A DNA stretch of 64,000 nucleotides from NCBI GenBank assembly GCA_030280995.1, contig JASXTE010000005.1, positions 38,790,242-38,854,241 on the forward strand. The letters run 5' to 3'. Below the pieces are notes generated by a model. That model made no database searches. It was given only the letters and a program-made list of their open reading frames with translations, and was not told where the DNA came from. Within the stretch, counting starts at the first letter, position 1; each line of letters opens with the position of its first letter. The translations under genes were made by a program, and so were the position numbers. Positions 3,275 to 29,525 of the stretch are shown here, one piece after another. The DNA is from Hemileia vastatrix (lineage: Eukaryota > Basidiomycota > Pucciniomycetes > Pucciniales > Zaghouaniaceae).

Positions 3275-3310
3275 CACCACGGGAAATCTAGGGGTGAATT
3301 GCTAGCAATC
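3275..3310 (+). repeat. Left terminal inverted repeat tip of element G
   Basis: It begins CACCACGGGAAATCTAGGGG and runs into a small palindrome GAATTGCTAGCAATCC. It is the inverted match of 40314-40349 with one or two differences. Just inside lie short direct repeats of a CACATTGAGCA unit (about 3487-3515). Confidence 0.8.
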
Positions 3311-4205
3311 CCCTCTCCTGAAATTTTGAGTGTCCCTTAATTATGCCAGGTTAATGAATACTTTATAAACATAAGTAAATTAGAGTTAGATTTACATTTA
3401 TTCTCAGATTGGTCCAAAAATGAACCTCAACTGATCTCAAGTTATGCATAAGTTGATCAACTATAACAATGATTTTATCCTTCATTGAGCACACATTGAG
3501 CACACATTGATCCAACATAAGCTTTTGAATATACAATATTTTTATCAATTTAGAGGAAGAAAATTATTCTTTAACATACCTAATCATTACTTTGCATTCA
3601 AAAGATAAACCATAAAATTATGAAAGTAAATTTAATTTACAATAATAATATCTTTTACTACATAATTGTAACAATAAATAAATTTAGCAAATTTTTTGAT
3701 CACAAATATTAATAACTATAGGAATTGAAATAACTAATGCCATTCCTATTTTCAAAATTTAAAAAGATTAAAGTCACTTCTCACTTCTAATCTTTTAAGT
3801 CTTTGCAAAACTAAATTTTGTATAATTTTTTAAATTTTACCAAAAATATAAGACCTACAGGCTATTGAAAATAAAATCTTCAGTTACTCAACTAAAAGAA
3901 ATATTTATATTTAAATAAAAATAAAAATAGTCCTTAAAGTGTATAACATGAAAGGTTTTTATGGAAATTAATATGCAAGTTTTCCTTTTTAAATATTTAA
4001 TGCTTATATAAATCACTTTCCCAAGTTTTGGTATGAGTACATGTGAAATAGTAACTGCATTTAAAAGTGGAAACCAATATAATGACAAAAATATTTACAA
4101 AATTTATTTCAATTTAATATTTATCTGTAAAAAATTTTGAAAGTAATATTTTATTCATCTTCTTAAGGATCTCTTCCTCCTCCTCTACCCATCTACTTTT
4201 TAATA

Positions 4206-7200
4206 GGGGGTCTCAAACTTGAACAAATATGCCTGGTGGATTTCATTTGAAAACCACCACATAAACACACCATGAAACATGGCTGATTTGGTACATGAGA
4301 TTATAAACATGGGGTCAAATATGTCCTACTTTAGTGAAAATTTTCCAACCACAGCACAGGCAACCAATCTAAAGATCCTCCCAATTCACCACACATCACA
4401 TCTTTCCCAACCCACTTTTTTGAAACAAATTTTTACACATGGTGCCCCAGTAGATTTTGAGCTTTTCATTACTTTCTTTATCAACAATTCCTGAACAAAT
4501 TTATATCCTCAAAACTCAGTCATCATGCCAAGAACACTACAAAATTTTCAACACAACACTTTTAAATCCTTTTTTCATGCTCTCAAAATGATCAAGTTGC
4601 ATGTACTTTCCACTTGGTTTTGTTTTATTTTTGCATATTAAATTTTATTTTGAATTTTCACTGAAAGCATAATTTTTCCCTTCCTGATTCATTTTGGTTA
4701 ATCATCTCAACATGAAGTTGGATATTTCAGAAATTGCATAATTTTTCATTCTTTCTGTTTTTCAATGATCTTTCATATCCTTTTATTCATCTTCTCCCAC
4801 TTCCTTAACTCTTCTTCTATTTTTTTATCCATCACTTCCTGAACTTCTATCTGGTCCTTTTACATCTTTGAAGACATCTCATCAGGTAAGTCATCCTCCC
4901 ACCATATTTTTTTCAATTTTAACTGAAGTTCTTTTTCTGAATTTGTTTTTTTTTCTTTTTCTTTTTTTGTTTTCTCAAATCACATTTCCAATTTTAAGAA
5001 GGTTCTACAGAAGCCTAGCTCTCATATCCACCAAGCAACATCTGATTTGGCTCACTGGTTAATGAGATATTTATTATTTACTTGGCTCAAGCTTCCATCA
5101 ACTTTATTTTAATCTTCTCAAGTAGGTCTTACTCTGGAACAAATATAATACTTATAAAAAACATAGGTAGCTAAAATAGATCTTTTTAGACCATTGATAA
5201 TACCTGACTTTAATTTTTATAACCCTTTTTTGATTTTCTTTTAAGTCAAAAATAAAAGGTCAGAAATAGGGTTAGGTTTTTTTAAATGACATATCCTTTT
5301 GTTGGAAGAATCTCAAGAATCATTTATTTTATTTCCAGCAAATGGTGTTGAATTTGGTCTAGTGGTTGCTGAGATAACTTCTTCCAAAGTTGAATCTTGT
5401 TTCATAGACTAATTTACATTTTTTAAGTTCAATGTTGCATAATATGCATATAGGGCTTATGCAATCTATTTCAAATAATACTTCAGGCTTTTGGCTCTGA
5501 TTTGATCAGCTAAATATCAGTTTTGGATGAGTCCTTCATATTTTGTAATTTTTTTATGAGGATGAATATTAACATTTGATGAATTTTAGCTCATTCAAAT
5601 CCCACATTATTTTGATTTCAGGTTCTCTATAGGCATGAATTTCATTTCAATAAAGCATAATCAATTTTGGCTCAGAAACTTCTGAGATATCTACTTTTAA
5701 AGTTGAGTCTTTCTATGTAAACTAATTTAAATTTTTGAATTTTGATATTCTGTAATATGCATGTTTTTTCTGATACTTTTCATTGTACGACTCCCAAGGT
5801 ATGTCAATTCCTCAACTGTTTTTTATCATTTGTTTCCTCAATTTTTCTTCTTTATAAATCATTTTTTTCCCTGATTTAATGATGTTTTGGATTTTTTTCA
5901 GGAGATGGTATAATCAAATCTATTTGGAGCTCTTCTCAGCATAATCATCAATCAAAAATTCAAGAGATAATCATCAAACTACCAAGGAAACTCCTGGTTT
6001 GATATCTTGTAAAAAATTTTCTCATTTTTTTGGAATCTTGTGAAGCACTTACTCATTTTTGTTTTTAATTCCAGATCAACCAAAGTCTGATAAACCAGGT
6101 AAGTAAAGCAAGGGGGAAGGGCCCTACTTATAGTAAATCTTTGAGGAGGGGTTCCAAATAGGGTAATTAGAAGATTTTTCATTTTTTTATTTTTATTTCA
6201 TAAATTTTTAATTTATCAATTATTAAATATAATCAATCAAATAAAACGTTTGTGCAATTGAGCCTTGCTGCTGTATAAATTTGTTCAATTAATTATTTAT
6301 TTGTATTGAATGGATGAATTGTCAATACATTGCTTGTCATATGATTTATTTGGCTTTGGTCACATCTGAAATCATTAGCAGGTGGAATTGTGAATCCCAT
6401 TACTTTTACTTGGCTGATTATATTTTTTTATTGTTTATATAAGAATTTATGAAATTAAAATGAAAATTTGGTAATCTTTACCCCCTCCCACAGTAAGTTG
6501 CAGAGAGAGGTATTGTAAATTTTTTTTTCTTACATTAATATTTTTTTTAAAATGAAAAAAAATGGCAATCTCCACCCCCTCCCACAGTAAAATTCAGGAT
6601 TAAGTATTGCCATTTTTTTTTTTCAGACATAAAAAATTTTTTTGACATGAAAAAAATGGCAATCACCACCCCCTAATATAGTGAAATTCAGGGGAGGGTA
6701 TTGCCAAATTTCTAGATTTAGAAAAATAAAATTTGTTAATTTATGTATCTTGTGCATAAGTGTTGATTAATGAAGCTGTTGAAAAACCATATTTAACCAA
6801 ATTATTAATAGAAATCCAGAATGAATTTTAGTCAAGTAGATATGGAGAAAAACATTACTTATAATTTAAATACAAAACATTTAATTAACTGGAATCCTAA
6901 AAAATAGCAAGAGTAGAAGCATGCAATGTATATAAGAGAGATTCAAAGCATTTTTTTACAATCAAAATATTTATTTCCATCTCTGATCTGGAAGAGGTTT
7001 TCAAGATGGGTAAATGTGCCACCATTTCAATTTGAACTAAAATGACAAAGTGCAACACAGATTTGAATAGGAGGATCTCTTTATGAACAACAAGAATCAT
7101 TTCTGAAAATTGAGTGATATTTTATCAGTTCAAGTAACTGAGAAATCGAGGCAAGGTTGTGCAAAATATCTGTTTAAAGCTAATTTAAGGAATGCTTTAA

Positions 7201-7728
7201 AGAACCTCAAGGTTAAATTGTGGTTGGTGTTGTATGGAAAGTGTTCTGGAATATAAGCAGCGATTCTTCAGCATGTCACACATGTAAGCCAAGTCAATTT
7301 CAGCATTGGAGTTGGTATCTGAGTTAACCAATAGATCTAGGGCTAGAGTGGTAGCAGTTATTTCTAGTTTACAATGGACTGAAAGAGGAATTTTAGTGAA
7401 TGGTGATTAAGACTAAGGGTGAGTGTATGATGAAGTGGCTGCTTAAGTGGTGGGAAGTCATGTTTTTCACATGTTGAATAATAAGCCCTTAAGAATTAGG
7501 CGGAAAAGAATCTAAAGAGATGGCTTGTCTGTACCTATTTCTGACTAATCAAGATGAAGGAGAAAAGTGTTTTGATGGCTTTTTTTACCAAAAGAAGGTT
7601 TGTTTGAGGCGAAACACACCATCAAAATACACCTGTCCATGGCAGGTGTATTTCATTTTCTGATGGTGTGTTTGGTACTTTTTTTGTGGTGTGTTTATGT
7701 GGCGTATTTGATCAAGTTTGAGATGCCC
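4206..7728. mobile_element. Z1: TIR element carried in the left arm
   Basis: Ends are inverted: the left begins GGGGGTCTCAAACTTGA and the right, read inwards, GGGCATCTCAAACTTGA, followed by CAAATA(T/C)GCC. Both are flanked by TA, as in Tc1/mariner-like insertions, though that assignment is weak. GGTGTGTTT-type motifs lie just inside the right end. No recognisable transposase was found; short open frames (for example 6897-7100, 5979-6182) are not convincing. A diverged tandem repeat with a period near 315 bp is seen at about 5340-5760. Confidence 0.5.
6478..6712. repeat. Three tandem GGCAAT...ACCCCCTCCCACAGT hairpin-like units (Z1)
   Basis: Three units of about 80 bp each contain ACCCCCTCCCACAGTAA-type sequence between inverted GGCAAT and ATTGCC segments and long T or A runs, so each can fold on itself. 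Confidence 0.6.
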
Positions 7729-7984
7729 TAATGTACTCCATCCCATCTAATTTTCATAGATAATCTCTATTGTTCTAGAACTCTCCTTATCAGCAATGGC
7801 CAATTTTATTTTTGAGCCATCAATCCCTTCATCAATCCTTTACCACTCATAATTCTTAATATATCAAAGAATATGCTTTTTTTATTTCATATAATGTTTT
7901 TTTCAAGCTTTCAAATGTCAGATAACACTACCAGAAAGATTAATCCTAGCTTGTAGTAATTTATAATTACATAAAAAAAAAGAA

Positions 7985-8423
7985 CCCGAGCCACAGGAAG
8001 TGGCTTGGGATTGAAATATAAAAAAAAATTGCTGCCAGCTTTAAGCTGGCAGCGTTTAATAAAAAAAAAAAAAATTGGCCAAAGCCACTAAAAGTGGCTT
8101 TGGCCAATTTTATAATACATCTTTCAGGCAGTTTAAAAATGCCTGCAAGATTGTGAGTTTAAAAGCGAGCGAAGTTGCATGCAGCAACTTCGCTCTCTTT
8201 TTTTTATATTATTGACTTGCAGCCAGTAATAAACTGGCTGCAAGTCTTTTTTTAAAGCAACCAAAGTTGCTACAAGCGACTTTGGTTGCAAACTGATTTT
8301 TGCATCTCCCAGCCAGATAACACTGGCTGGGAGGTTTGATGGTGAGATTTGAGAAGCCAATGTTGCTTAAAGTAACATTGGCTACTATAAAAATAAAATA
8401 CCAGTCAGGGCGAGCCTGGCTGG
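7985..8423. repeat. Palindrome array 1, left-arm copy: ten different short hairpins in fixed order
   Basis: Ten successive inverted repeats with unrelated stems and very short spacers occur at 7985-8009, 8031-8053, 8072-8110, 8119-8151, 8161-8200, 8214-8246, 8257-8289, 8306-8333, 8355-8383 and 8401-8423. Example stems are CCCGAGCCAC/GTGGCTTGGG, GCTGCCAGCT/AGCTGGCAGC and CTCCCAGCCAG/CTGGCTGGGAG. Loops are 3-10 nt. The same ten types recur in mirrored order in the right arm. No coding capacity is apparent. I know of no named element with this layout. Confidence 0.9.
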
Positions 8424-8837
8424 TTTGAATTAATAAGAAATAAGATTAAAGTTGATATACATTTAAATTTGCGCTACTCTTTTACATGCCATTTGCCATT
8501 AGTTTTTTGACAGTGTGAAATGTATATGTGCATAATAAAAAATCAAAGCCAAAAAAAGAGGTATTGGATATTTTTAAATGCCAAAACTTATATGCCCAGT
8601 TTTAAAATGTTTGAAATAAAAGAATAAGGATTTTGTGTGTAGATTGTTTTTCAGAAATGCATACTTGCTTGTTAACTCTTTTGTAGCCAAATTTCAACTT
8701 AGTGGCAAAAAAAATAATAAGTGATAAAAAATTGGTCCATAACATCTGAAGGTTAGTTTTCTAACCTTATGTGAACAAATAATATGGATAAGTGGATTGA
8801 TTTTGTAAAATAAGTGAATGTAAATATTAATTGCATC

Positions 8838-10250
8838 CGTGTGAAACTATCCGAGGCTTTGGTTCCTCGAATTATACTTTGTGAAACCCTATAAAAATAA
8901 GCTGTAAAAACAATATGTAAGTTTTAATTAAAAGCATGTGAAAATGTTTAGTCATCATTTGTACAATATATTGCTGTGTAAAAACCTGTTGCATATACGC
9001 CTTATGCAAGTCACTGCATGCCATGCAACTGGCTTCAGTAACTTGCATGTTTCTATACGCATAACTGTAAGCAAATTTTCATCCGAGTGGCAAATTTTCT
9101 ACTTCTCTCCTTCAACTTAGAAGAGACAGGTTATTATAATTATTAGCTTTCCATCTGTTTCACTTAAGAGTTTTTTATTCTGGCTTGTCCCTTATACTTG
9201 TTTCTTAAGTAAAAATATTAATTTCACTTTAAATATAAGTACAACTTTTAGGGAATCCATTTTTCTCAATCATTAGGTTTGCCACCAAAGTAACTTGTTT
9301 ACAGATTACTAACTTAGATTTTTAGTATTTTACTCTCCTTTTTAATCTCTTTAAAAAAAACATTAGAACTGATGATTGTTTTTAACTCTTGGCAGCTTGA
9401 TCTCTAACTTGTCATAGTATCATCAAAAAGCTAATTTTTGGTTAGCATCAAAATTTTATTTTGGTTTGTCTTTCTCTTTTTATTTTTTTCATTCAATAAA
9501 AATGATACTTATTTTTCTACAATAATCTATTCCTAAAAATTATAATTAACAGATTAGTTGTCCATTTATCAATCAATCAGCTCCTACCAAAGGATTTTTT
9601 TTAATTTTCAAGTAAGAATATCTTTTTTTCACTATTTAATTTTTAAACTTTTTATTATTCTCAATCATTATATATTAAATAATTAAAAAAAATAAAATAT
9701 CATAGTATCCACATGTGTATGTGATCAATTTTTTTCTACATATCAATAATTTATTGTATTGGCCTCCTGTAATTCTATTAATGGTAGAGGTATAGTTGAT
9801 TCTTGTTTAAGGAAACTATACCTTTCAACATTATAAATTATGGATATCTGGCGGTTTGATATATTATTGATATATGGAGAAAAATTAAATAAAGCATCAA
9901 CAGATACTTATGTATTATTGCTGTATTTATCATAATAATTGGGCATTGGATTTAAGCTTCACATTTAATTGTTTATGTTTAGGGTATAGTTGAATCTCGT
10001 GTGCCAAATGCATACGGCAGAATACTATACTTGTAAGCAATAAAATGAAGCTTTAATTCAAAATACTTGATTAATATTTTAAATGCAGCTAATACTGATG
10101 TTTTCTACATGCATGTTGGATATGATTTTTTATTTAATATTAAGAATATAATGATTATTTTTGGAGGCCTTATTTTTAACCATTGCATTATTTTGCACAT
10201 TTTTTATTTATTTTTGAATTAAATTAATTTCTTATTTACTACACTACAAG
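8838..10250. other. AT-rich arm sequence, no gene recognised
   Basis: Lies between palindrome array 1 and the TET/JBP gene and is mirrored at 23895-25313. It contains several short inverted stretches, for example TATACGCCTTATGCAAG near 8993-9010. It may hold the TET/JBP promoter, but no motif is convincing. Confidence 0.5.
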
Positions 10251-11446
10251 ATGCAGGCTTCACAAAGTTTGTTTATAAAGAAAAATCACCACCAAGGAAA
10301 AAAATCAAACAAAAAGCATGTGAAAAACATTGAGAATGCATTACTTATGGTTGAAAATTATGGTGTTGAGACAGATGGAAAGAGGGCAAAATATTTTTCT
10401 AGGATTTTTGTAAAAAATTTAGTTAATCCAGAACGGTATGTGATTTCAAATTCTAGCTGTTATATTTTCCATCCGATCCGCTCCTCAATTCCAAGTGTTA
10501 TAGTGAAAACATTTTCTATTGAAGATCTCATTCGATTAAACATGCTTGAAGCAACAATTCAGTGCATCAAAGACTTTTCTTATTTTGAACATTGAGTTTT
10601 GCAAAATAAAGCTCATAAAAATGGTGGTGGATTTGGTAATATGTTTGTTGGTGGTCGGTGTTTAGATAGGAAAAAGTCTCTATTAATTTGTAAGTATTAT
10701 AAAGTTTTATTTATGAATAGTTTTAATCTATTATTATTTTAATTACTTTTTTAGGTAAATATGCTTCTAAGCCCTTAGATTTGGCAGAGTATGTTTGTTG
10801 CATGAAGCGAATAGAGTTATTCTTTAAATTTTTTTATCAAAATATATCTAATGTTAAGTATCAAGAAGCAGTAAAACTCTGTCAAAAGCTTGGGATTCCT
10901 GGGTTTGGAGAAAATTTTAACAATGAAGAAATTGAACCATTTGCTGGCAATTTTACTTGGACAACAGGCTCAAATGGAAACGGGTTTTCGAATAGTTCTC
11001 ACTGTGACTCAGACCGTAGCGAGTATAGATTTGGACTTTTCATACCTAAAGACACTGAGAAAAATTCTCTTCATCAATCTTATGACTCAAATCAACCACG
11101 TCAAAAAGGCGGAGAGCTTCATTTTCCTGAAATAGCTTGCAAAGTAGACATGGAGGCCACTAATGGCATCACAGCAATTCTATGGCCAGCAAACCTTCTT
11201 AAACATTTCACTTCACGATGTTATGAAATTGGTGGATTCACTTGCCTTGGCTCTTCTATTCAAGTTAGTAAAAGACTTTTCAATACATTTAAAAAACTCC
11301 AAGAGTTTGAAATAGATATTTCTGAGTACTTAAATATAAATGAAGAGTTAGAAAGATGTAATTTTCTTATGATGAAACTTTCTAAGTACAATAAAAAGAC
11401 TGATTTAACAAAAAAAAAGAAAGTTAGTGAATCACTATATATTTAA
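10251..11446 (+). pseudogene. TET/JBP-like 2-oxoglutarate/Fe(II) dioxygenase, nearly intact, one premature stop
   Basis: Exon 1 (10251-10689) and exon 2 (10755-11446) are joined by a 65-bp GT-AG intron and would give about 376 residues. The C-terminal half shows the family core: HCD (HxD, two iron ligands) within SSHCDSDRSEYRFGL, then a GGELHFPE strand, GITAILWP, and KHFT with the likely distal histidine, then GSSIQVSK. Fungal TET/JBP proteins oxidise 5-methylcytosine in DNA and are known to be carried by KDZ-type transposons in basidiomycetes. The single in-frame TGA (10593-10595) is CGA in the right-arm copy (23551-23553 reversed), consistent with a C-to-T mutation. The start is the ATG after the AT-rich region, shared by both copies. 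The family call rests on motifs and spacing; no search was run. Confidence 0.7.
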
Positions 11447-13802
11447 TGCTACTAAAGATATTGAAAAATTAAATACAGAAAATGATTCTGATATACATGT
11501 TAATAAAAAAAAGGAAAAGACCATTAAGTAGTGATAGGTAAAAATGTGATTTTATTGTACAGGTATAGTTTTAGTTTAGTGGTAGAATGATATATTTACA
11601 CACATGTCTATAAAAACTTTTTATGAAGCTGATTATTATGTATAATCTGGTGAAAAACCTAAAACAATAAAAGTATCAAAAAAAATGGATGTAAAAATTG
11701 AAAAACCATATTACAATAAAAAATTATAATTGCTACAAGTAAAATAAAATATAATATAAGAAACAAAATATAGCTTTGTAACTTGCTTAATTATTGCAAA
11801 TGGAAACTAAAAATAAACAATATCTTACAAATCCTTCTTAAAAGATCATATGCATCAACATAAATAGATCTGTACTATTATTATTATTTTTAAAAATATT
11901 AAAAATTTGCTAATTTTTGCAATAAGACTTTACTTATTAATAAATAAAGTAAAACCATGTATTATTTTATTTTTATTTAAGTAAAAATAAAAATAAAAAA
12001 TAAATTAAAGGAAAATTAAATATTAATTTTTTTCTTTGAGTCATTCATTATTTGCTTTCATATCTAACTTGAATTAATTTAGTGGCATTACTCAATCTTA
12101 AATATAATGAAATTTGTACACTAGTGTGACTTGTGATTTTATTTTTTGATAAATTGAATATTTTTCATCATATAATTATATTTTATTGAAGCATATAACT
12201 GCAAAAGTAGAATTGAAATAATCAATAAAAGGAAATGAGATATATTGAGAATAATGAATCTATCAATCAATTTAGATCTCCAATAAAAATTAATTCTAAT
12301 TTTAAAAATTGTCTTGTAGAAGAGGAATATTTAATTAATATGAATTTAAATTTCCTTGTAGATCTTGACTTTGCCTTTATCATCTATCTTTAATTAAGGT
12401 GCAGAGTTCAAAAAGCTGAATTATATGATGATATTTCTATATATCTAATTGAATTTTTTTTAAAAATTTATAAAACAAGGTATGTAAAATAGAAACTACT
12501 ACTTCATTTTTAAGTAAATTTTATTATATTATAATAAAATATTAATAATTATGAAAGGGCTTTTACTTTTGTGAGAGAGTGGACCTCAATATATTTAAAG
12601 ATAAATATAACGCAATTAAATTGAAATTTATTTTGAAGTGTTTGAATATTTATTCATTGAATTAATTTTTAGAGTTTGGGATGAATATTTCTTTTTTCTT
12701 GGAGTTGAATGAATCTTAAAATCCTAGAAAAAGATTGTAGATATATTTTTGTTGACCTTTATCTATTCAGGTAGATGTAAGTAGAATTTGATTCATATGA
12801 AATTCTACTTGAAAAATAATATTTCAATAACTTATTATTGACATTTAAGGATGAACAAGAAGGATGGAAATCTAAAAAGGGTTTGTTTTAATATTTATAG
12901 AAATAATATTTTTAAGTTCTTAATAAGGAGTACCCTAGTTGCTTTCTTTTATTTTTTTGCTTTCATAGAAAGAATTAAATATCTTTTTTACCAAATTATT
13001 GAACAAAATTTGATATCTATACATGAATCTGTAAGTGTAAAAAATAATCAATATAAAATATGAATCAAAATACAGCAAGCTAAATTATAGATCATCAAAC
13101 TGTAGAGTAAATTTTGTTTTTCAAAATAATTGACACTGATAAAAAGATATTTTTTAAATTTAACTAGTTTTTCAAAGACACTTTAATATGATTCCATACC
13201 AATATGATGGCTTCTCATTATTTAAATGTCTAGATATTATTTTATCATGGTACATATATATGTTACTATTATTAAATGAATTGAATATTATTTCCAGGAG
13301 TTTTTCATAGAGAATACTTAGTATAATTAAGATAATTATGCACCTAGAAATTATAGAAATTAGATTAAGAAAAGTCTACTTAAGAAAAAGCTTTGATGAA
13401 TTGTGAGCAAAAATTCATTACACTTAATATTTTTAACTTTTTAACATGATGAAAAGAATTGATAGAAAACTGTTTCAATTTTTTGTAATAATTATCTTAA
13501 AATTTGCGACAAATGCTAAGATGTATTGCCATCTTAAAGAAATATATAGTGTTATGAGAAAAATGACTTATAATGTATTCTTAATTTTTCTTCAAATTTT
13601 TGATCCATCATGATTTTGAGTTATGATTATTGAAATAATATTTACTGAATAGCAAAAAGGTGCAAGAAATTTATACAATAATATTTATTGATAGTTTAAG
13701 CATCTTTATTCAGATTCGGTAATAAATCTCACATAAATAAATAATTTGAGTTACACAAAAAATGTAGCAATAGGATAAAGTATATATTTACATGAAGTAG
13801 GA
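11447..13802. other. AT-rich sequence, no gene recognised
   Basis: Very A+T rich with scattered stops in all frames. The open frame at 12851-13063 has no recognisable features. Nothing supportable is seen. Confidence 0.5.
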
Positions 13803-16226
13803 TTATGTATTAATTATGTCAACAATAGAGAAAAATGACGAATTCGGCTTAATAAGATTCCAATAATCAAGAAAATCAGCTGCCATTGCTTTAGCAATAT
13901 GGCTCATGGTGGGAGTATTAAAATTAAGTGGCATAGGCCCAGAATTATCTATTAAGGGTTTGATAATATTAAAGATATAAAAATTAAGGTTTTTCCAGAT
14001 TTTTTCACCACCCAGATTATTATTATCACAGTATTTTCTAAGGAGGCCGAGTTGTGTTATGAATTCTAAGCAGTCTGAAGCTGACACAAGCCGGTGGTCC
14101 TGTGAGGAAAGAAATAATCCACGAACACCATCAACCAAGTAAAAAGTAAATGATTGATATTTATGGTGTGAATATTCTTGATTCATCTTCTGAATAGAAT
14201 CATTATGAGACTCATAAAATTGCTACATATCTGTTGTTTTTTTTTTATTCCTTGAACGTTGTCGTTTCTTGCTTTCAGCTTGAGTTATATTTGCAGCAGC
14301 CTCTCTAGATTTTAAAATAAATATTGAAATTATGACGTCGATTATTATGTTTCTAAATTGGCATAGGGGAGTGATTGAAAAATTTTCAGCAATTAACTGT
14401 GATGTTGAGCTGTCAAATGTATTGGGAACTTTGCTTTTCAGATGTGTAAGGCAGGCTAGAATATGTAGGGCACGTTCAATAGGACAATCTGGATTGAAGT
14501 TGGATTCTTCAGCAGGAAGGGTAAACTCTTGAGAAGCAAGATAAAGAGATGATGCGACGAGGGATGCCCAAAAAGAAGGCTGGTGAGCAGTTGGGCTAAC
14601 TAGTCTTGATAGCATGCGTATCATCAATGATTCAGGGTGATCAGTCTTCTTAAACGGAGAAAGATTATTTGATTTTGGTTCTTCAGAGTTACAAAAATTT
14701 TCCAAATTTTCAAAGTTCAAATTATTGACCACCCAGATCTGCAAAGTGTCAACATTAAGAAAATCCAAAGCTAAAAAAATAACAACAATTAGTTATCATA
14801 AAATAAATTATCCAACTTCAATTAAGTGATACATACAGAGTTCATTAATTTTTGTAAGCATTTCGTCATGAGCAGATTTCATCCATAGAAAATTGAATTT
14901 GTGTGAAATTTCGTGTGGCTTTTCAAGAGAAGCAGACAAACGGATTTCAAATAACTGATCGATTTCTGGCCATGCCCTAAGTACCTTTTGACCATTGATT
15001 CTACCTTCAAAAAATCAATGAATTTCAGCTATTTGCTTCTGTAATTTTGAGTTTCCAATCATTGTTGGAGTATAAGGAAGGGAGTTATTAGAAATTTTTA
15101 TTGATGATGATAGAGACCGTAGGATTTGGGGAATTTCAATTTTAGATTTTGAAGATACGGCAACTATAAGCTGTTTCTTTGAACTTGAAGTATTTTTTTG
15201 TGGCTGGCTAGGTGGATTGATTTATTCATTTGGTGTTTTCTCAACCTCATCAGCAGAAGTAGCTTCATCATCTTTTTTAGTTTGAGAAGCTTCATATTTT
15301 GAAACTTCATCATCATCATCTTCTTCTACTTCTTCTTCATTAGAGCAAGATTTGCTATTAGTTGACGCTTTGGAGTGATTGTCGTTTTTAGAGCTGGATT
15401 AAAAGATAAGAAAAAGACAAGAAATAATAAATAAGAAAGTAAACAATTTGGAGATAGCTTTAAACACTAATATAAAATTGATTGCTATATTACTCATGAA
15501 AGAAATAACATACCCTTTCGACACATTTTGGCTAGTTTGTTTGGATTTTTGAGATGCTGAGTAAGAGGAATCCTTGGCAGGAGGAGTTTTAGTAGCACTG
15601 ACAAAACTAGAGCCCCTAGAAAGTCTCATTCTTTTTGAACGCCGAAGAATAGTCTTATCTCCCCCTCAAGATGTTGATGCATAGCCTTCAGCGTCAGGTA
15701 TTTCATTATCATCATCATCTTTGATGATAATGACATCATCAGGAGGAATGATACCTTTTTCATAAGCTGAATTTGAATAAGTTTTAAAGAAAAAGTGTCC
15801 ATAATTTATTGTTCTGAGTTTAAAGAATTTAATATAAAATAATTACTTACATTTTTCTAGGTCATCAATGTATTCAAGCACATTGTTGTAGGCATTTGAA
15901 ATATAAGATGGCAAAGGCTTCTCGCTAAGAGTTGACAGTAGTTCTTCAGTTTTTCCTTTAGAAAACTCAAGTATCTTGCCATATTGAGATCGGGTAATTT
16001 CAGTACTTTCATTGGCAAGAGAAGGGGGGTTTGGAGACATGCCTAGAGGTGGTTTTTTCTTGAGTTTGAAGGATTCGAATCAAGGATGCTGATGAGATTT
16101 CGTCAAATAACTACTTGGTGCTAATATATCAAATATATTAATGGAAAAGAAAAGTTAGTCTAAGAAGATATAAGAGATAAAGCAATAGATCTTACATAAA
16201 GGAGGTGTCTGTTTATCACGAGGCAT
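13803..16226 (-). pseudogene. Unrecognised multi-exon element-G gene (G1), with several stops
   Basis: Minus-strand gene starting MPRDKQTPPL at 16226, with a GTAAG donor directly after it. Further segments are SNAYNNVLEYIDDLEKC (near 15850), EKGIIPPDDVIIIKDDDDNE (near 15720), a Ser/Lys-rich stretch, an acidic EEEVEEDDDDEVSKYEA stretch (near 15320), then a long C-terminal part (14768-14223 and 14186-13803) including FWASLVASSLYLASQEF and FYLVDGVRGLFLSSQDHRLV. Low-complexity acidic and basic N-terminal regions followed by a helical C-terminus could suit a chromatin or DNA-binding accessory factor, but I do not recognise a domain. Stops at about 16080, 15665, 15220, 15017 and 14223 indicate decay. 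It sits between the two arms and runs in the same direction as G2 and the transposase fragment. Confidence 0.55.
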
Positions 16227-17527
16227 TTTAATGACTTATTACTTGAAAAAAATAAAAAATTCTTATATCAAGATAATAAAGAGATAAAAAATATATGTTG
16301 CTATTTGTATTTTCAAGCTGTACTAACACAGATAAATGTGATAACCAAAAGATAATAGTAGTAAAATTGAGAGAAATAAACGAATTGAGAAATGTGGTAC
16401 TAAACAAGAGGGTTTATATATTACCAGAAGCAGGTTTTTGATAGGGGTTCTTTTACAATGGCATCAAGCTAGTGAGCATATTGTAAAATAGTCTGATGAT
16501 AATAATGGGGTTAATAGTAAAAGGGAAGTAACTAGACATAAACATTGGGAACTTAAAAGGATGACAAACAAAGAAAATGTTCAATTTACAATTTGATAAT
16601 CGCAAAGGGTAAATAGTTGAGAATATAAGTTTAACTAATTTAAATATTTAAATTAATTTTTAAATATTGACATCATGCAATATGACAAAGGGATCTATTA
16701 TTGGAAATTTTGGCATCTTTATGTGTTATAAAAAATAGGGGACAAAAACAAAGGAAAAAGATAATTTAAAAAAAGGGGATAAAAAAAGATAACACTAAAT
16801 AGTATTATATAAAATTATTAAAAAAAATTAATTTATTCTATTATAGGAGCTTGCTTGGCCTGCGCTGACACCCCATGGCACAAACCTAGTCTAAACTTAG
16901 TTAAAGTTAAATTGATATAATAAATCGGAAATAGAAACACTTAAGAATCTTAGCATATGAATAAAGTATAAAATTATTTGAAATTATTGCCATATAAAAT
17001 CCAATAACCAACTACAAAAGTCACAATTTTTTTAAATTAGTTTACAGATTTGTACAAGGTTACGTACTGTAAACATCATTCAATAGTAATTGATGAACAC
17101 TTTCCACTGAGATAACTAAGTTGAAAATGAAAATAGATAATGGATATATGTTTCTAACTTGAGCTATTATTGAATAGGAAAAGTCAAAAAAAATATAGCA
17201 GGATTAATCAGGGTATTTTTTACATTGATGTAAAGCTTGGTTGATAAAATAGTAAAAAACTTTAAATAAGGACTAAAAAAAATAATCAAATCAAAGAGGA
17301 ATATTAGAAATAGGTGTTATAAAAATTATAACCAATATCTTAGAAATATTGAGGGAAATAAATTACTGGTAATCGCAAAAAATATTGTACACTTTTACCT
17401 TAAAATGGAAATATCAACTACTCATAATATACTCAAAACAACTACCAATAGCTAAAGGTTTCCCTTTTTACCAAAAGACCATGGTAAGGAATATGTAGAC
17501 AATTGAATCCATCAAACTGTTTTGAGT
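16227..17527. other. Non-coding stretch upstream of G1
   Basis: AT-rich and without a gene. It separates the G1 start from palindrome array 2 and may carry the G1 promoter. No defined site is seen. Confidence 0.45.
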
Positions 17528-18522
17528 AAAGTGTCCAGCACAAGTTTGGCCAAACTTGTGCTGGACACTTTTATAAGGAAATCCTCACTTCTCCTAAAAA
17601 AACATGCAACTTACCAACTTCAAATTGGAAAAGTGTCCAGCATAAGTTCGGCCGAACTTGTGCTGGACACTTTGGCCAAGACCAGTGACTAAAAATTGCA
17701 AGGAAAACCAAAAATCAATAGGCTATAAAAGGAAGTTAATTGATGGCATCAAATTGTTTTTTGGTAAAAGTGTCCAGCACAAGTTCGGCCGAACTTGTGC
17801 TGGACACTTTTATGAGGAACACCTCACTTCTCTTAAAAAACATACACCTCTCCAACTTCAAATTGGAAAAGTGTCCAGCATAAGTTCGGCCGAACTTGTG
17901 CTGGACACTTTGGCCAAGAACAGTGACTATGAATTGCAAGGAAAACCAATAAAAATAGCCCATATAATGAAGATAATTGATGCTATCTAATGTCTTTGGT
18001 AAAATTGTCCAGCACAAGTTCGGCCAAACTTGTGCTGGACACTTTTATAAGGAAAACCTCACTTCTCTTAAAAAAACATGCACCTTACCAACTTCAAATT
18101 ATAAAAGTGTCCAGCATAAGTTCGGCCGAACTTGTGCTGGACACTTTGGTCATGGACAGTAACTTATTACTTCAAGGAAATAAAAAAAATTTAGGCTATA
18201 ACATGAACATATTTGATAGCATCATTTTTTTTTTTGGTAAAAGTGTCCATCACAAGTTTGGCCAAACTTGTGCTGGACACTCTTATGAGGAACACCTCAC
18301 TTCTCTTAAAAAAACATACAACTCACCAACTTCAAATTGGAAAAGTGTCCAGCATAAGTTCGGCCGAGCTTGTGCTGGACACTTTTACCAAAAAACAATT
18401 TGATGCCATCAATTAACTTCCTTTTATAGCCTATTGATTTTTGGTTTTCCTTGCAATTTTTAGTCACTGGTCTTGGCCAAAGTGTCCAGTACAAGTTCGG
18501 CCAAACTTGTACTGGACACATA
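17528..18522. repeat. Palindrome array 2: nine copies of a 38-bp near-perfect palindrome with two alternating spacers
   Basis: Palindromes lie at 17531-17568, 17633-17670, 17770-17807, 17871-17908, 18005-18042, 18107-18144, 18243-18280, 18345-18382 and 18482-18519. Each arm reads GTGTCCAGCACAAGTT, around a GGCC-centred core. Start-to-start spacing alternates about 101-102 and 134-137 bp, so the unit is a 237-bp dimer with two spacer types. The last long spacer (18383-18481) is the exact reverse complement of the spacer at 17671-17769 (99 nt, no difference seen). Mismatches within stems are mostly C-to-T changes on one arm. Open frames crossing the array are repeats of the palindrome and not genes. 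Confidence 0.95.
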
Positions 18523-19275
18523 GCACGATACTTAAATTCTACTAAAGTATGTTTATCAATTACATGTTATTAAAGCGTCTTTTATTTTTTTAAGGCATGA
18601 AAACCAAATATAAATTGATGATTTTTTGGTTTTTAGTGATTAATAATTTTCAATTATTGTTGCGAAAAGTGAAGTTTAAAAATAAAAATTTCTTAAGATC
18701 CTTGTGTAAACAAATTCCCATTGTTTGAATGCTTTAATTTTTTGTATATATTTAGTTTATTAACTATGGTAATGGATTTTTGAGTGCCTTTAATGATCTT
18801 TCTTTTTTGGTTAGGGAAGGTGTTCACTTTCATTTTTTTTTTCACATGTGCATTTTTATACTAATCATTGGTGGCGTTTAGACAATAAAAAAGCAATTAT
18901 AATTATTGAAAAACAGGTATTTTAAATTGAAATTTAGAATCTAATTCTATTCTTGCTTTAGGCTTTAATTTGATCTTGTCGTAAGTATCTGAGAAGAGAT
19001 TCAATTTAATTTATTTTAAGTTCATTTATTGTGCATAAAAAAATTTCACATTTATTTAATCAAAACGTTTATCATGTCTTAAAGTTTTACAAAAATATAT
19101 ATATGTTTTTCTATGCTTAATAATTTTAAAATCTTTAATTCTTTTGCTCTCGTTTATCTTATACATCAATTGGAATTTTTTATAAGAAAGAATAATAATG
19201 TTATATTAAAAAAATGATTACTATCACTCTATATACATGGTTACCAGTTGGGTAAAAAATTTAAGGTTCTGCTGC
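18523..19275. other. AT-rich sequence between array 2 and G2
   Basis: No gene, repeat or site recognised. Confidence 0.45.
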
Positions 19276-20951
19276 TCAATCTAGTGCTTCATTAACTTTG
19301 GCGAAATCTATATCTTCTCGAACATCAAGTAACTCCCTCTCATTAACCAACAAATTTGCTAAATATCCAGGTGAATAGCAGTTTTTTGGAAGAAATTTGG
19401 GCACATTCAAGATACCATCTGTTGAAGCTGTCTTTTTAGTTGAGCGATCATAAAGTTTCTTCATTGAAGCCTTTTCAACATTTGAATGGGCCGTCTTTTT
19501 AGTCAAGTTGTCCATTTTATCTAAAATTTCATCCAGTTTTGTATTTCTCCATCCAGGAACTACTTGTTTAGGAAGATTCTCTTCTGGATTGGGTGGGGCT
19601 TCTTCTAAATCAGACATGAGACTTGTATCATTAAAAAGTGCTACAAAGCCTGGCTGATCAAAGCACTTTTTTCTTGCAATGTCGTAGCGGTTTTTTGAAA
19701 TCTAAAATCAAATTAGATTAGTAATAGACTTTCTTTAATTATTATGCTTTGAATAAATACCTTTGTTTGATAACGCTTTATCTGTGCTCTTGATCTCTTT
19801 TCCTTTCTACTTGCCTCAATCACCTCACAGTTTTGACCAGCCACCTTTCGAATCTCCTTTCCCTTGTTGACCACCCATTGCTCGACAATGATTGGTGTAA
19901 ACCTGAGTTTGCTGAATCAATATTTTTCAATGTTGAGAGCCACTTAGTACAATGGTCTGATACTACACTCCCCATTACTTGATTCCATAGTGACTCAGAA
20001 AAATTTTGACAGTTCCAATCAAAAGCGAGTTGACGAAATCCTTTCTCTTGAAGCTCTCGTTCCAAATGCTGTTTTACAGAGATCGGTACAGAAGCTCCTC
20101 CCTTTAGTCCGCGGGGCTCAGGTGTTGAAATAAAAGTTGGTAGATGAATTTTGGAACGTAAGAATATAGCAGTATTTGTTAAAATAAATTGACGATTTGC
20201 AGCTGAAGTTGCCTGCGGTGCGTTTTGAACCTGTTTTAATGCTGTTTCAATCGTCAATAGCTTGTAATCATGCCAATTTTTCCAATATATAAGTTCTTCA
20301 TTTGTTGCGCCTATAGGAAACTCAGATACATTAATGGGTCCACCAAGACAGAACTTCAAAAAGTGATAGATATTTCGGTTAATAGAATCTGAGCTCCTTG
20401 GTACATCACACCTCGTAACTATGCTTCTAACCATTAGCAAGTTTCGGTCATTTTGAAGTGACTCAGCATCAAGTATTCTGCGCTGATCAGTAGCTCGAAT
20501 TAAAAGAGAGGGATTAACTGCAAATTTTTGAAAATAAAAATTGGTAAACCTATTTTAAAACATAAAAGCATGTTGAAAAAGTTTACTCACCAGGTCCACT
20601 GGTACTGGCGGCTGGGTTAGTAGAAGTGGATCCTTCACCGCTTCCAAGAAACTGATTCAACAACATACTAGCCCAATCATTACCTACACTTTCTGCTTCC
20701 TGCTGAAAATTACCAGGTGCGGATTGACCATCTGTATTTGTGATATTAAAAGAGCAATCAGTTGATCAAATTTGGTGATCTGATGAAGACTGAGGAGGAG
20801 GTTAGGGTTTACCTGGATTTTCACTCGGTCTTTCAGGGGGAGCAGGACCCGATGGAGGCATTCTAGGATTTTGAGGGGGAGGATTATTTTGCACTCCAAC
20901 ATTACTTTCTAATGGAGGATCAACCTGCATGGCATCACCAGTATTAGACAT
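19276..20951 (-). pseudogene. Unrecognised multi-exon element-G gene (G2)
   Basis: Starts MSNTGDAMQVDPP at 20951 with a Pro-rich N-terminus. Introns follow at GTAAAC (near 20812) and GTGAGT (near 20591). A central exon (about 20520-19760) holds NRNIYHFLKFCLGGPINVSEF, and a last exon after an intron near 19700-19760 holds QPGFVALFNDTSLMSDLEEA, VPGWRNTKLDEILDKMD and PKFLPKNCYSPGYLANLL. A frameshift near 19830-19850 separates the RWLVKTVR frame from the following basic RKEKRSRAQIKRYQ segment. This layout resembles repetitive hypothetical proteins of rust fungi that travel with KDZ-like transposases (from memory, not searched). Function unknown. It lies downstream of the transposase fragment on the same strand. 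Confidence 0.6.
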
Positions 20952-21347
20952 TCTGGGCTTTATAAAAAAAAATTATTAACTTTCAGAATATAGACAAGAT
21001 AATATTAAAGAGAAATTAGTTATACATTTTAATTGTGAGTTTAATGAATAAAATATTCAAGTGAAAAAATTAGTTGAAAACTCAGTTTTATTGGCTTGAA
21101 AAATATGGTCCTTAGATTTTTCAACCCTGGTTCTGAACTATTTATACTATTTTTAAAGTATAGGTAGACTTTGTATAGTACATTGAATTACTTTTAGTTG
21201 AAATTACATTTACAATAAAAGGTCACTCATTAATAGCAGGGTTTCTAAACCAAAAAGAATGCCCTTGTATTTGTTTTCTTAAACATTTAGGCAACATCTC
21301 AAAAAGTTTTATTTATTAATCTTGCATCTAGCTGTTCCAAAGATCTA
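20952..21347. other. Spacer between G2 and transposase fragment
   Basis: No gene recognised. It probably contains the G2 promoter and the end of the transposase transcript. Confidence 0.4.
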
Positions 21348-23031
21348 TTACAAACTTTCCAAATCCTCCAAATTCTTACCAATCCTAAATAATTTCAACC
21401 ATATTAACGAAAATAAAATGTCGATGTTGTTTAATTTATTACTTACTAGTGTCTGAAGTCCAACAGCAGTGATAACATCGTACTTTATTCCAAACATTCC
21501 CCTTTGGTGCTGTAAAGTGGCGGCATGTCCAATAATTGAATCTTGATTTATCACAATTTGTGTCACTTTTTCTACTCTTACTAAACGGCAATGCACTTGT
21601 GGAAACGCCTCATAGGGATCCTTTTTTGTATCTTCTGGTATAAGCTCTTTAAATGGACTAACGATTAGATAGACTTTTTCATTATCGTCCTTTGAACTAA
21701 AAAGCTGATCAATATGCCCAAACTGACTATCTTTTCCAAAGTAGAATTCAATGGTAGAATTCCCAGGATTCTTTTCATGAGTCCTATAACGCTTTCCATG
21801 GACCAATATGCTTGCTATATTTTCAACTACCCTGTCTGCTACCTTCTCTGATGGTAACAAAGCCCGTTTAGATGTCTCTTTTCTTAAGCGTGCCCTTACC
21901 CATTTTGTAAATAATGCCTCAGTTAAATGGAAATGTCTTTTTTTTGTATCGTACTCAAATTTTTTAATATTAGATCCATACTGAGAATCATCTTCAGCTT
22001 CACCTAGTTCCAATACCCTAGACTTCCGATGCCAGTGCTTGAGCATGGTCCATGGTATTTCTTCTATGTTCAATAAAAATAAATTAGCTCATTTGCATTT
22101 TTAAGCGCTCAAATACCAAACTAAATACCTGGATGATGATTGTTTGGAATTTCCAATAATATACCATTAACTCTTTCAGCAGCCCAAGTAGCCATACCTA
22201 CGGGTGGACCAAAAAGTTTGATCATTTCTGGAAAATGTTGAGTGAAATGAAGATTTGGCTTAAAGCTAATACTTTTCCAACCTTCTTCCAAGCAGTTAAA
22301 ATACTCCAATAGCAGTTGTTTTAATTCATCAACTTCATTGGCAGACACATTTTTTAAAGTCAAAAAGTTGGTAATTGAACTTAAAGTGGTGAGTGATTTG
22401 AGAAGATAATATTCTCTAGGTTTGTGGTCTGACGTCATGGATGTCTCGGCTTGATTTAATTTTTCTACCCAAAGGGGGATAAGTGACAAAGGAGAGTAAA
22501 CAGTATAAAGTACATGCCACTCCGCAGCTTTGAGGGAACCTGACTTTTTAGATCCTACTTGTTTTGGCACTCGTGAAATCCAGGAAGGTTTTTTTGTTTG
22601 CTCTATCACATTCCACACTGCCTCTATCTCAGTGGCTGACAATCGTGGATTCTTAGTTCTTTCACTTTCCTTCTCTTTGCCCCTCTTTTTATCTTCCTTA
22701 CTTCTAATAGTCTCAACAGATGAATTAGATCTTTCACTTTTTAATATACTGATACTTTTTTGCCTTAAGTTATAGGTTGAATTTCGACTTCCACTTTCAG
22801 AAGCATGTTCGGAGCCAAACTCTAAGGTTTGAAAGTGATGTTCAGAACTTGATGACTTTGTCCGGCTGTTTGATCCTTCCAATTCAGCTCCTCCACTATC
22901 CATTCTAAGATATGTTTGTGACCGTCTCATTGTACTTGTATATCATAGTCTTTTTTGCCGTCCCACTGGTTCAATATTATTGGCATCAGTGCTGATTAAG
23001 CTGCTTCTACGTTTTTTATATTGCTTATTTA
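21348..23031 (-). pseudogene. KDZ/Plavaka-type transposase, C-terminal part only
   Basis: Two exons (about 23031-22121 and 22073-21430) are separated by a short intron. The first has an Arg/Ser/Lys-rich linker, then the conserved block KAAEWHVLYTVYSPLSLIPLW, then KPNLHFTQHFPEMIKLFGPP followed by WAAERVNGILLE, which is typical of the C-terminal region of KDZ/Plavaka-like transposases of basidiomycetes. The second exon matches the family tail (FTKWVRARLRKE, FYFGKDSQFGHIDQLF, DPYEAFPQVHCRLVRVE, IIGHAATLQHQRG). The N-terminal catalytic core is missing: at 23031/23032 the reading frame passes directly into the truncated TET/JBP copy. A TGA at 22943-22945 interrupts the joint frame. It would not encode an active transposase. 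Confidence 0.6.
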
Positions 23032-23894
23032 AAGCTATATCAGGAAAATGAAGTTCTCCACCTTTTTGACATGGTAGATTTGAATCATAAGATTGATGAA
23101 GAGAATTTTTCTCAGTGTCTTTAGGCATGAAAAGTCCAAATGTATACTTGCTACGGTCTGAGTCACAGTGAGGACTATTCAAAAACCCGTTTCCATTTGA
23201 GCCTGTTGTCCAAGTAACATTGCCAGCAAATGGTTCAAGTTCTTGATCATCAAAATTTTCTCCAAACCCAGGAACCCCGAGCTTTTAACAGAGCTTTACT
23301 GCTTCTTGATACTTGACATTAGATATATTTTGATAAAAAAATTTAAAGAATAACTCTATTCTCTTCATGCAACAATCATACTCTGCCAAATCTAAGGGCT
23401 TAGAAGCATATTTACCTATAAAAGTAATTAAAATAATAGTAGATTAAAAATATTCATAAATAAAACTATATAATACTTACGAATTAATAGAGACTTTTTC
23501 CTATCTAAACACCTACCACCAACATTTTTATGAGCTTTATTTTGTAAAACTCGATGTTCACAATACAAAAAGTCTTTGATGCACTGAATTTTTGCTTCAA
23601 GCATGTTTAATCAAATGAGATCTTCAATAGAAAATGTTTTCACTATAACACTAGGAATTGAGGAGCGGATCGGATGGAAAATATAACAGCTAGAATTGGA
23701 AGTAAAATACCGTTCTGGATTAACTAAATATTTTACAAAACTCCTAGAAAAATATTTTGGCCTCTTTCCATCTGTCTCAATACCGTAATTTTCAACAATA
23801 AGTAATGCATTCTTGATGTTTTTGCATGCTTGTTGTTTGATTTTTTTCTTCGGCGGTGATTTTTCTTTATAAACAAGCTTTGTGAAGCCTGCAT
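23032..23894 (-). pseudogene. Truncated TET/JBP dioxygenase copy, right arm
   Basis: Inverted partner of the gene at 10251-11138, starting with the same MQASQ start at 23894. It keeps the HCD iron-binding pair (within SPHCDSDRSKYTFGLFMPKD) and the GGELHFPDIA strand, but stops there, before the distal histidine and the GSS-QVSK end, so catalysis is impossible. Coding then continues in frame into transposase sequence (LNKQYKKRRSS). It has a TGA at 23611-23613 where the left copy has CGA (10533-10535), and lacks about 24 nt of a Gly-rich segment present on the left near 10625. Confidence 0.7.
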
Positions 23895-25317
23895 CTTGTA
23901 GTGTAGTGGATAAGAATTTAATTTAATTCAAAAATAAATAAAAAAAAGTGAAAAAGAATGCAATTGTTAAAATTAACACCTCCAAAAATAATCATTATAT
24001 ATTCTTAATAATAAATAAAAAATCATATCCAATGTGCATGTAGAAAACATGAGTATTAGCTGAATTTAAAATATTAATCAAGTATTTGGTATTAAAGCTT
24101 CATTTAATTGCTTACAAGTATAGTATTCTGCCGTATGCGTTGGGCACACAAGATTCAACTATACCCTAAACATAAACAATTAAATGTGAAGCTTAAATCC
24201 AACGCCCAATTATTACAATAAATACAGCAATAATACATAAGTATGTGTTGATTCTTTATTTAATTTTTCTCCATATATCAATAATATATCAAACCTCCAG
24301 ATATCCATAATTTATAATGTTGTAAGTTATAGTTTCCTTAAACAAGAATCAAATATACCTCTACCATTAATAGAATTACAGGAGGCCAATACAATAAATT
24401 ATTGATATGTAGAGGAAAATTGATCACATACACATGTGGATAAAATGATATTTTATTTTATTTTATTATTTAATATATAATGATTGAGAATAATAAAAAC
24501 TTTAAAAATGAAATAGTGAAAAAAGATATTCTTACTTGAAATTTTAAAAAAAAATCCTTGGGTAGAAGTTGATTGATCAATAAATGGACAACTAATCTGT
24601 TGATTTAAATTTTTAGGAATAGATTATTGTAGAAAAATAAGTATTATTTTTATTAAATGAAAAAAATGAAAAGGGAAAGACAAGCCAATATAAAATTTGG
24701 ATGCTAACAAAAAATTAGCTTTTTGATTATACTATGACAAGTTAGAGATCAAGCTGCCAAGAGTTAAAAACAATCATCAGTTCTATTTTTTTTTATTTTT
24801 TAAAGAGATTTAAAAGGAGACTAAAAGACCAACAATCCAAGTTAGTAATATGTAAATAAGTTAATTTTGTGGCAAACCTAATGATTTAGAAAAATGGATT
24901 TTCTAAAAGTTGAACATATATTTAAAGTGAAATTAATATATTTACTTAAGAAACAAGTATAAGAGTCAAACCAAAAAAAAAAACTTTTAAGTGAAACAGA
25001 TGGAAAGCTAATTATTTTAATAACCTGTCTCTTGTAAGTGGAAGGAGAGAGGTAGAAAATTTGCCACTTGGACAAAAATTTGCTTACAGTTATGCATATA
25101 GAAACACGCAAATTACTGAAGCCGGTTTCAAGGCATGCAGTGACTTGCATAAGGCGTATATGCAAAAGGTTTTTAAACAGCAATATATTGTACAAATGAA
25201 GAAAAAACATTATCACATGCTTTTAATTAAAACTTACATATTGTTTTTACAGCTTATTTTTATAGGGTTTCACAATGTAGAATTTGAGGAACCAAAGCCT
25301 TGGATTGTTTTACATGG
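23032..25317 (-). repeat. Right long inverted arm of element G, inner part
   Basis: Inverted copy of 8837-11138, ending inside the truncated TET/JBP copy. At its outer end an ATGG (25314-25317) is the target duplication of the solo LTR that split the arm. Confidence 0.75.
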
Positions 25318-25603
25318 TGTAGAGTAGACTCCTACAGTCACCTTGCTGCAGGCAGAATCCAAGGGAGTTGGAAAAACAAAAAGAAATCCCTGTCCCTCTA
25401 AGTAAACGTAAGATTAAATTAACTAAGCTTGAAGATCTGCTTGAAGAAATGGATAATTTAAAAATCTGAGAGAAAGACTTTGAAAGTGTTGGAAACCTAT
25501 AATATAGAAAAAATTAAGTGCAATAAATGATTACATCCCCAAAACAAATACCTTATACCAGATTACACTGATAAAAGTCACAGAAAATACTTAGAACAAG
25601 CGG

Positions 25604-26768: not shown

Positions 26769-26778
26769 TCCTCCCTCC
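26769..26778 (-). promoter_or_regulatory. R1 polypurine tract
   Basis: The minus strand reads GGAGGGAGGA directly before the LTR start TGTGGTAG. R2 has the identical tract before its LTR. Confidence 0.85.
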
Positions 26779-26891
26779 AATCGAGAATGTCCCCATTCTT
26801 AAAACTTTGCATAAGTGGTTGAACACAATATTCATCTTTAACCTTCAACCACCATCTTCTTTAATCAACTATAAAATTCATCTTCATCAAT

Positions 26892-27583: not shown

Positions 27584-28139
27584 CAGTATAACTTGATAAA
27601 ATTTTGTTTTTGCTTGGTCTTCTTAAACTTTCAACATAAATGATTTTTTCTTTCTTCTCTGGCTTGATATAACATAAAATAAAATAAAATAAATCTTGTG
27701 ATGATTCCACTACTGAGAGCAAGGTTTGAATCCCTTCAGACTCCCATATACCAGTCTTCCTTCTTGTCACAGCATTGAGAGAGTGGATCTTCCTATGAGC
27801 CGAATACTCCTGATTCCAACCTCATAGGGCCCCCCACTGAGCCGAATTCTATGATTCCAATCTCGCCATAAGGTCCTCCAAGCTTCACACCAAAAAAATG
27901 GCCTAACTATGAGGCACTAAAAAAAATCATTCCCTAGAATCCAACTACCATCCTAACTTCTGATTCCTTCATCACAATTTTCAAACTTTGCTATACAGCA
28001 AACCCATAAAATACTTTTGCCAGGATTCCAATAATAATATTAACTTTAGACCATGTTAAAGCGCCACAAATTTCACCTAATTAACCATTATGCTTTCCTT
28101 AGCATCATCACCACCTAAAATTTTAACCTCCTAAAGCTA
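27584..28139. other. Region after gene B, no gene recognised
   Basis: Two imperfect GAGCCGAAT(A/T)CT blocks near 27797-27850 and otherwise unremarkable sequence. Probably the 3' flank of gene B. Confidence 0.4.
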
Positions 28140-29035: not shown

Positions 29036-29149
29036 TGAAGTAAAATCCCATAGGTATTGAGTTCCCCCAGACCCTGTTTCCTGTCTTAACTATATGAATA
29101 AACTAAAAAGAATAGTGACTGAAAAATAAAACTAAGAAATATAATAATA

Positions 29150-29400: not shown

Positions 29401-29525
29401 AAGATTTTAGAAAAGATAGTTTTGAAATAAAAGTTAAAATTTAATTTTTAAAGAAAGATAAATGAGTGTGAAAAGAAAGATAAAAAAAAGTAATAAAAAA
29501 AATTTTAAAATAAAATTTTAAAAGA

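Follow-up and report, generated by a model that had tools for sequence, protein, structure and literature searches.

Ten consecutive hairpins of two alternating types within a TET-carrying EnSpm/CACTA transposon of Hemileia vastatrix

The 64,000-nt stretch of Hemileia vastatrix DNA that was analyzed here (hereafter the window; contig JASXTE010000005.1, positions 38,790,242 to 38,854,241, in a genome assembly of 747.6 Mb and 791 contigs) has a low GC content of 22-43% in 2-kb steps; a GC content of 33.8% has been reported for A. psidii (PMC8063080). The window contains a copy of an EnSpm/CACTA transposon on the plus strand (3275-23043), which runs from its left end, CACCACGGG.., to a truncation point within the transposase gene. 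This copy carries an ORF for a TET-like 2OG-Fe(II) oxygenase (10727-11446, plus strand; PF20515, E 2.5e-21) and the C-terminal part of a tnp2-type transposase (21348-22942, minus strand), the part that matches PF02992 being missing here. No Pfam family matched the transposase fragment or the minus-strand translations, in all three frames, of 11000-16500 and 18600-23100. Neither the fragment nor the TET-like ORF had a homologue in the protein collection searched, and the TET-like ORF had no match in viral contigs nor, by sequence, in the PDB.

A complete copy of the element, 29,018 bp in length, was found on contig C42. It begins with the left end seen at window position 3275 and is collinear with the window up to 23043, with an identity of 97-98% by block and of 93% across the repeats of a second hairpin array described below, and it contains SNF2-like ORFs and the PF02992-matching part of the tnp2 transposase (E 3.7e-11; 43.1 bits, cut-off 28.6). 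The element has CAC..GTG termini, with CACCACGGG.. at the left end and ..CCGTGGTG at the right end. The left end was read in both window copies and in seven further copies (CACCACGG or CACCACAG), and the right end in two copies; both window copies are without it. The two copies in which both ends were read are flanked by 3-bp target duplications (TTT/TTT on C42 and TAT/TAT on C338), and the right end of a third copy could not be located where it had been predicted. A TTGCTAGCAA palindrome near 25.28 kb of the C42 copy was rejected as the right end, since it belongs to a 260-bp insertion that is absent from another copy. CAC..GTG ends and 3-bp duplications are also features of the TET-carrying EnSpm families of P. 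striiformis, described in a study that reports TET-like oxygenases in rust DNA transposons and names related EnSpm families from other rusts, including A. psidii (Kojima 2025, PMC12730594).

The hairpin array that is the subject of this report belongs to this TET-carrying EnSpm/CACTA transposon of approximately 29 kb. In the left copy of the window it occupies positions 7985-8424 on the plus strand, 5' of the TET ORF; in the 29,018-bp copy it spans 4716-5158 bp as counted from the left end. No hairpin with a score of at least 9 was found within 4 kb of either end of the element. The ten hairpins are h1 (7985-8009), h2 (8031-8053), h3 (8071-8111), h4 (8119-8151), h5 (8161-8201), h6 (8214-8246), h7 (8257-8289), h8 (8306-8333), h9 (8353-8385), and h10 (8400-8424), all on the plus strand, with arms of 10-19 bp, loops of 3-6 nt, and a centre-to-centre spacing of 46.1 +/- 2.6 bp. 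The sequence-only reading had described ten consecutive palindromes, and this description was borne out: the array contains 10 hairpins with a score of at least 7, compared with a mean of 0.41 and a maximum of 3 in 300 dinucleotide shuffles. The array also folds far beyond its shuffles, both as DNA of the plus strand (-142 kcal/mol versus -56.7 in 100 shuffles, z -23) and as RNA of the minus strand (z -17.7).

Over the whole window, 44 hairpins reached a score of at least 10, compared with 0-2 in each of five simulated sequences that follow the local base-step frequencies, and 41 of them lie in four places: 7 in this array, 13 in its mirrored copies, 9 in an array at 17.5-18.5 kb, and 12 in an array at 49.0-50.6 kb. 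The array at 17.5-18.5 kb (17493-18519) is a second hairpin array of the same element, comprising nine hairpins with arms of 16-22 bp and a GGCC centre in 238-bp repeats; the last of these hairpins differs from the others by a paired change, and the corresponding array of the C42 copy has 25 longer hairpins at 14.3-17.1 kb. The third array (48827-50700) lies outside this element and consists of 326-bp repeats with TGAGGC..GCCTCA palindromes, some of the repeats being reversed. Several further features were seen in the window. A short non-autonomous EnSpm-like element (49265-49525; CACCAC..GTAGTG, duplication ACT) has the TTGCTAGCAA palindrome near both of its ends, and a 94% identical insertion is present in the C42 copy. 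The stretch at 54709-56339 is 71% similar to positions 7099-9016 of locus L050, which hold SNF2-related ORFs within the complete EnSpm copy, and positions 41429-43594 and 57862-60900 form inverted arms, 74-81% identical in their main blocks, with cysteine-rich ORFs.

The right arm of the window is a second, more diverged copy of the same element in the opposite orientation (23032-40349, minus strand), which has its left end at 40349, is cut off inside the TET-like gene, and is interrupted by an LTR retrotransposon (25604-33167; LTRs at 25604-26768 and 32058-33167, 99% identical). The junction of the two copies lies at 23032-23043, where the left copy breaks off within its transposase gene and the right copy within its TET gene. 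A giant terminal inverted repeat, to which the 94% identity of the arms had pointed, was rejected because the complete C42 copy is without such an arm and because the junction in the window lies inside two genes. The two mirrored recurrences of the array are present on the minus strand, at 35585-35147, where the loops of h1 and h7 are inverted, and in tandem at 35115-34671, where the loop of h7 is inverted; a remnant of hairpin 10 (35614-35634, minus strand) precedes the first of them. The three arrays of the window are 87-88% identical, two of them being tandem duplicates in the inverted second copy. Since the right arm is a homologous copy of the element, the shared order of the hairpins follows from descent, and the conservation of order can no longer serve as an argument for function. 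Several marks of the right-arm subfamily, namely an A-T stem pair in h3, the inverted h7 loop, and the h6 loop, are common to loci L068, L073, L082, and L086.

The hairpins had been described as unrelated, but the odd-numbered and the even-numbered ones each align as a family. When the 5' halves were aligned, hairpins of the same parity scored a mean of 6.45 and hairpins of different parity a mean of 4.68, and among 252 labelled splits this difference was reached by the odd/even split alone (counted twice). The odd hairpins (type B) fit a common frame, ten inner pairs long with a five-base loop, the inner part of the arm ending in GCCAC, TTGC, or TCGC, whereas the even ones (type A) have GCCAG or GGCAG in the inner part of the arm. 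Among the consensus odd hairpins, all 50 cells of the ten inner pairs are Watson-Crick although 7 of the 10 columns contain more than one type of pair, and none of 5000 within-column shuffles reached 50 paired cells. All 40 cells of the eight inner pairs of the even hairpins are paired as well, with 3 of 8 columns varying, which 18 of 5000 shuffles reached. For h9 and h10, these pairing figures are based on the upstream form, the proximal consensus being mismatched at one position of each stretch. Up to 6 of the 10 inner pairs differ between sister hairpins without any loss of pairing. In longer frames, taken from the majority of the three window copies, an unpaired position was involved in 28 of 140 comparisons for the odd hairpins (14 pairs) and in 17 of 72 for the even hairpins (12 pairs, h8 omitted), mostly in the outer part; in h1, h3, and some of the even hairpins, pairing frequently fails at the outer positions. 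An odd-hairpin pattern had 0 matches in viral contigs. The parity families and the paired variation within columns indicate that the array is a two-hairpin unit of about 92 bp that was repeated about five times, and that the stems were afterwards changed mostly in pairs.

To follow the array through the genome, 40 of 624 candidate loci were scored, and 39 loci plus the window yielded 59 full arrays, four partial arrays being left out; one to four arrays occur at one place, the fourth being partial. Loss of stem pairing in other copies at the rate of neutral sequence had been named in advance as what would refute the functional reading; single copies of the proximal type show just this, and the outcome differed between sets of copies. 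The 40 proximal copies decay neutrally after insertion: the rate of change is 2.28% in the stems and 2.60% elsewhere in the array, and 207 stem changes are one-sided whereas 11 are two-sided, 9 of which keep a pair. In the 17 upstream-type copies, the stems have changed more slowly (2.65%) than the rest of the array (5.34%), with 105 one-sided changes and with six of the seven two-sided ones keeping a pair. Eight pair positions show a paired change in the pooled set, of which five are CpG, two are subfamily differences (in h3 and h9), and one, in h6, is neither.

A third set was sought in elements with a diverged transposase. Among 25 further stretches, array sequence was present in nine (L068, L073, L074, L077, L080, L082, L084, L086, and L089); the other 16 had no array within reach of the sequence examined, which does not imply that their elements are without one. 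The R consensus was built from eight diverged rows, namely six arrays (one each from L068, L082, and L086 and three from L073) and the two right-arm arrays of the window; it does not include the arrays of L074, L077, L080, L084, and L089 or a broken array of L082. Pairing holds at 130 of 135 positions in the proximal consensus, at 132 of 135 in the upstream consensus, and at 118 of 126 in the R consensus; the R rows show CpG decay, and several of the unpaired stem differences in R are CpG positions.

Between subfamilies, stems differ 2.6-5 times less than spacers. The proximal and R consensuses differ at 11 of 253 stem and 16 of 142 spacer positions (p 0.010), the upstream and R consensuses at 10 of 253 and 18 of 139 (p 0.0015), and the proximal and upstream consensuses at 5 of 253 and 14 of 143 (p 0.0007); when restricted to variable sites, the stem deficit has p values of 0.008, 0.002, and 0.0006, respectively. 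The reference for all three comparisons was the set of changes within the proximal copies (237/10115 in stems, 115/5774 in spacers, and 73/1800 in loops), the spacers are A/T-rich, and the tests are not independent because tandem arrays exchange sequence. The corresponding changes were 117/4262 in stems and 84/2431 in spacers within the upstream set, and 109/2013 and 114/1132 within R. In nearly all of the stem pairs that differ, the change is not a paired one (9 of 10 for proximal-R, 8 of 9 for upstream-R, and 4 of 4 for proximal-upstream); one paired change, from GC to AT in h3, sets the R consensus apart. Most stem positions are paired in each subfamily consensus, and stems have diverged less than spacers; with the caveats given, these statistical comparisons support a constraint that would have acted on the stems at the level of the lineage, while the element was active. 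The structural or binding function that had been proposed from the palindromes therefore gains support at the level of subfamily consensuses, from paired stems, fewer stem differences, and covarying sister hairpins, with no preference among cruciform, binding site, and RNA; the decay within single proximal copies speaks against it.

The loops of several hairpins are exactly inverted in some copies. The h3 loop reads ACTAAAAGT in 34 of the 59 copies and exactly the inverse, ACTTTTAGT, in 21, the remaining 4 having another sequence; counted as exact 13-mers, the normal and inverted forms number 25 and 11 among proximal copies and 7 and 10 among upstream copies. In the whole genome, the inverted form occurs at 48 places (exact 37-mer, with this orientation alone counted), compared with 0 for a backwards control. 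On a tree built without the loop from 37 proximal copies (3 of the 40 rows were left out, one with a foreign flank and two with another h3 loop), at least 10 changes of orientation are needed, and a single clade of inverted copies was rejected (p 1.3e-9). However, the tree is star-like (the version with all 40 rows leaves 26 of 37 inner branches open), so the number of changes alone says little; shuffled labels required 8-11 changes (ten of 200 shuffles), like the observed count. Distances revealed no local linkage in proximal copies (494 of 500 shuffles reached the observed value) and little in upstream copies (62 of 500).

The h1 loop is normal in 53 and inverted in 3 of the 59 copies. Its inversion accompanies a paired stem change to A-T (2 of 4 copies with the change versus 1 of 55 without it, p 0.010, in a comparison made after the association had been seen), and the two cases may share descent because two of six further R arrays also have the inverted loop. 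In one right-arm h1, the loop is inverted and a mismatch repaired relative to the sister copies, exactly as a single template switch predicts. The h7 loop is inverted in both right-arm arrays and in six related R arrays, three of which have a base change at the edge. The loop of h8 is the inverse of the h10 loop in seven upstream-type copies and, apart from a base change, in an eighth, whereas another copy carries the h10 loop upright in h8; the presence of the h10 loop, mostly inverted, in h8 (8306-8333) was noted as an exchange between hairpins. No inversion was found in h5 or h6 among the 59 copies, and single-base 'inversions' of the loops of h2 (1 copy) and h4 (2 copies) were not counted because they equal point changes. 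Template switching between inverted repeats produces exactly inverted spacers, with or without repair of the arm (PMC8604942, PMC8794818). We infer that the loop inversions are the footprint of this process, or of recombination among copies, which could mimic a recurrent inversion.

The reading that best accommodates these observations, to which we assign a probability of about 0.5, takes the array for a cis-acting site in the interior of the EnSpm/CACTA element, built of tandem two-hairpin units whose stems were kept while the element was active and whose loops are inverted by template switching. Tandem repetition of a unit of one type B and one type A hairpin would have produced the array, and each hairpin would be an inverted pair of half-sites, most likely for a dimeric DNA-binding protein of the element. 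By analogy with TNPA-type proteins on plant CACTA repeats, binding of this protein might control transposition or the neighbouring TET gene; our best guess is an internal version of the CACTA stem-loop repeats that is bound by an element protein. The stems would be kept during the activity of the element and decay neutrally after insertion, and polymerase template switching between the arms would invert loops and sometimes repair a mismatch simultaneously, thereby supplying some of the paired changes.

A variant, which we regard as unlikely, is that the element needs self-complementarity and not a fixed sequence; the array would then be a structure-specific hairpin or cruciform site, with template switching contributing the paired changes and loop flips by which the stems could drift and yet remain paired, and it would represent a DNA cis-element that evolves by hairpin-templated mutation. 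Also unlikely is the proposal that the palindromes have no function and were made and kept by template switching (quasi-palindrome correction) alone. It would account for the exact inversions in h1, h3, h7, and h8 and for the right-arm h1 in which inversion and repair coincide, and it has a parallel in yeast, where spacer inversions occur on arms longer than 9 bp and an AA/TT flip recurs in SPO75 (PMC8604942). The process is nevertheless too slow in most hairpins, as judged from the 207 one-sided and 9 pair-keeping changes in the proximal copies; moreover, five of the eight pair-keeping positions are CpG, and h5 and h6 remain without inversion despite arms of 18 and 14 bp.

It is improbable that the array is an ordinary decaying tandem repeat whose stems are well paired only because the element multiplied soon after the repeat had arisen: the neutral decay of proximal copies, the variable number of arrays per place, and the rarity of paired changes between subfamilies would all be expected of such a repeat, but the pairing retained by diverged sister hairpins and the deficit of stem differences between subfamilies would not. 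Equally improbable is a transcribed array acting as a structured RNA or a source of small RNAs, since the folding of the minus strand and several G-T or T-G consensus mismatches that one RNA strand would tolerate as G-U have to be set against the lack of any Rfam family at the gathering threshold in the window, the expectation of G-T mismatches from CpG decay as well, and the 10-19-bp arms, which are on the short side for Dicer products.

Stem-loop series are known from CACTA elements of plants. The soybean element Tgmt* has 12+2 stem-loops with a common 7-bp motif, which were taken as sites of a TNPA-like protein (PMC2613891). The present array resembles Tgmt*/Tgm1 and the TNPA sites of En/Spm in its series of stem-loops with a recurrent core within a large CACTA element that makes 3-bp target duplications. 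In contrast, the stem-loops of Tgmt*/Tgm1 lie no more than 159 and 732 bp from the ends and share a single motif (PMC2613891), whereas the array described here is not subterminal but lies 4.7 kb inside the element, alternates between two types of hairpin, covaries in its stems within the array, and has inverting loops. In the parts covered of the study on the P. striiformis families, no hairpin array is described, and its main text contains 'hairpin' 0 times and 'palindrom' once (PMC12730594); no such array in a fungal transposon was found in the titles and abstracts of the partly covered open-licence literature, which is a weak negative. The array may be of a known kind, the CACTA stem-loop arrays, with its internal position, alternating types, and loop inversions as possibly new features.

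The exact inversions with or without arm repair are the same as those described for template switching at inverted repeats (PMC8604942; PMC8794818), although their distribution differs. In the rRNA set, a compensatory change combined with a loop inversion was very rare (6 cases, compared with 69 of loop inversion alone; PMC8794818), and ten inversions were reported in yeast coding genes (PMC8604942), whereas here a single hairpin, h3, is inverted in 21 of 59 copies. Whether pairing stems from selection or from template switching has usually been studied in rRNA, in which the mutations are masked by selection. With many copies of the array in one genome and a measurable neutral decay, selection on pairing becomes separable from pairing produced by template switching, and the array thus offers a natural test bed for the evolution of DNA palindromes. 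If the constraint holds, a palindrome array would be kept internally, and not only subterminally, in a large CACTA element with its own TET-like oxygenase.
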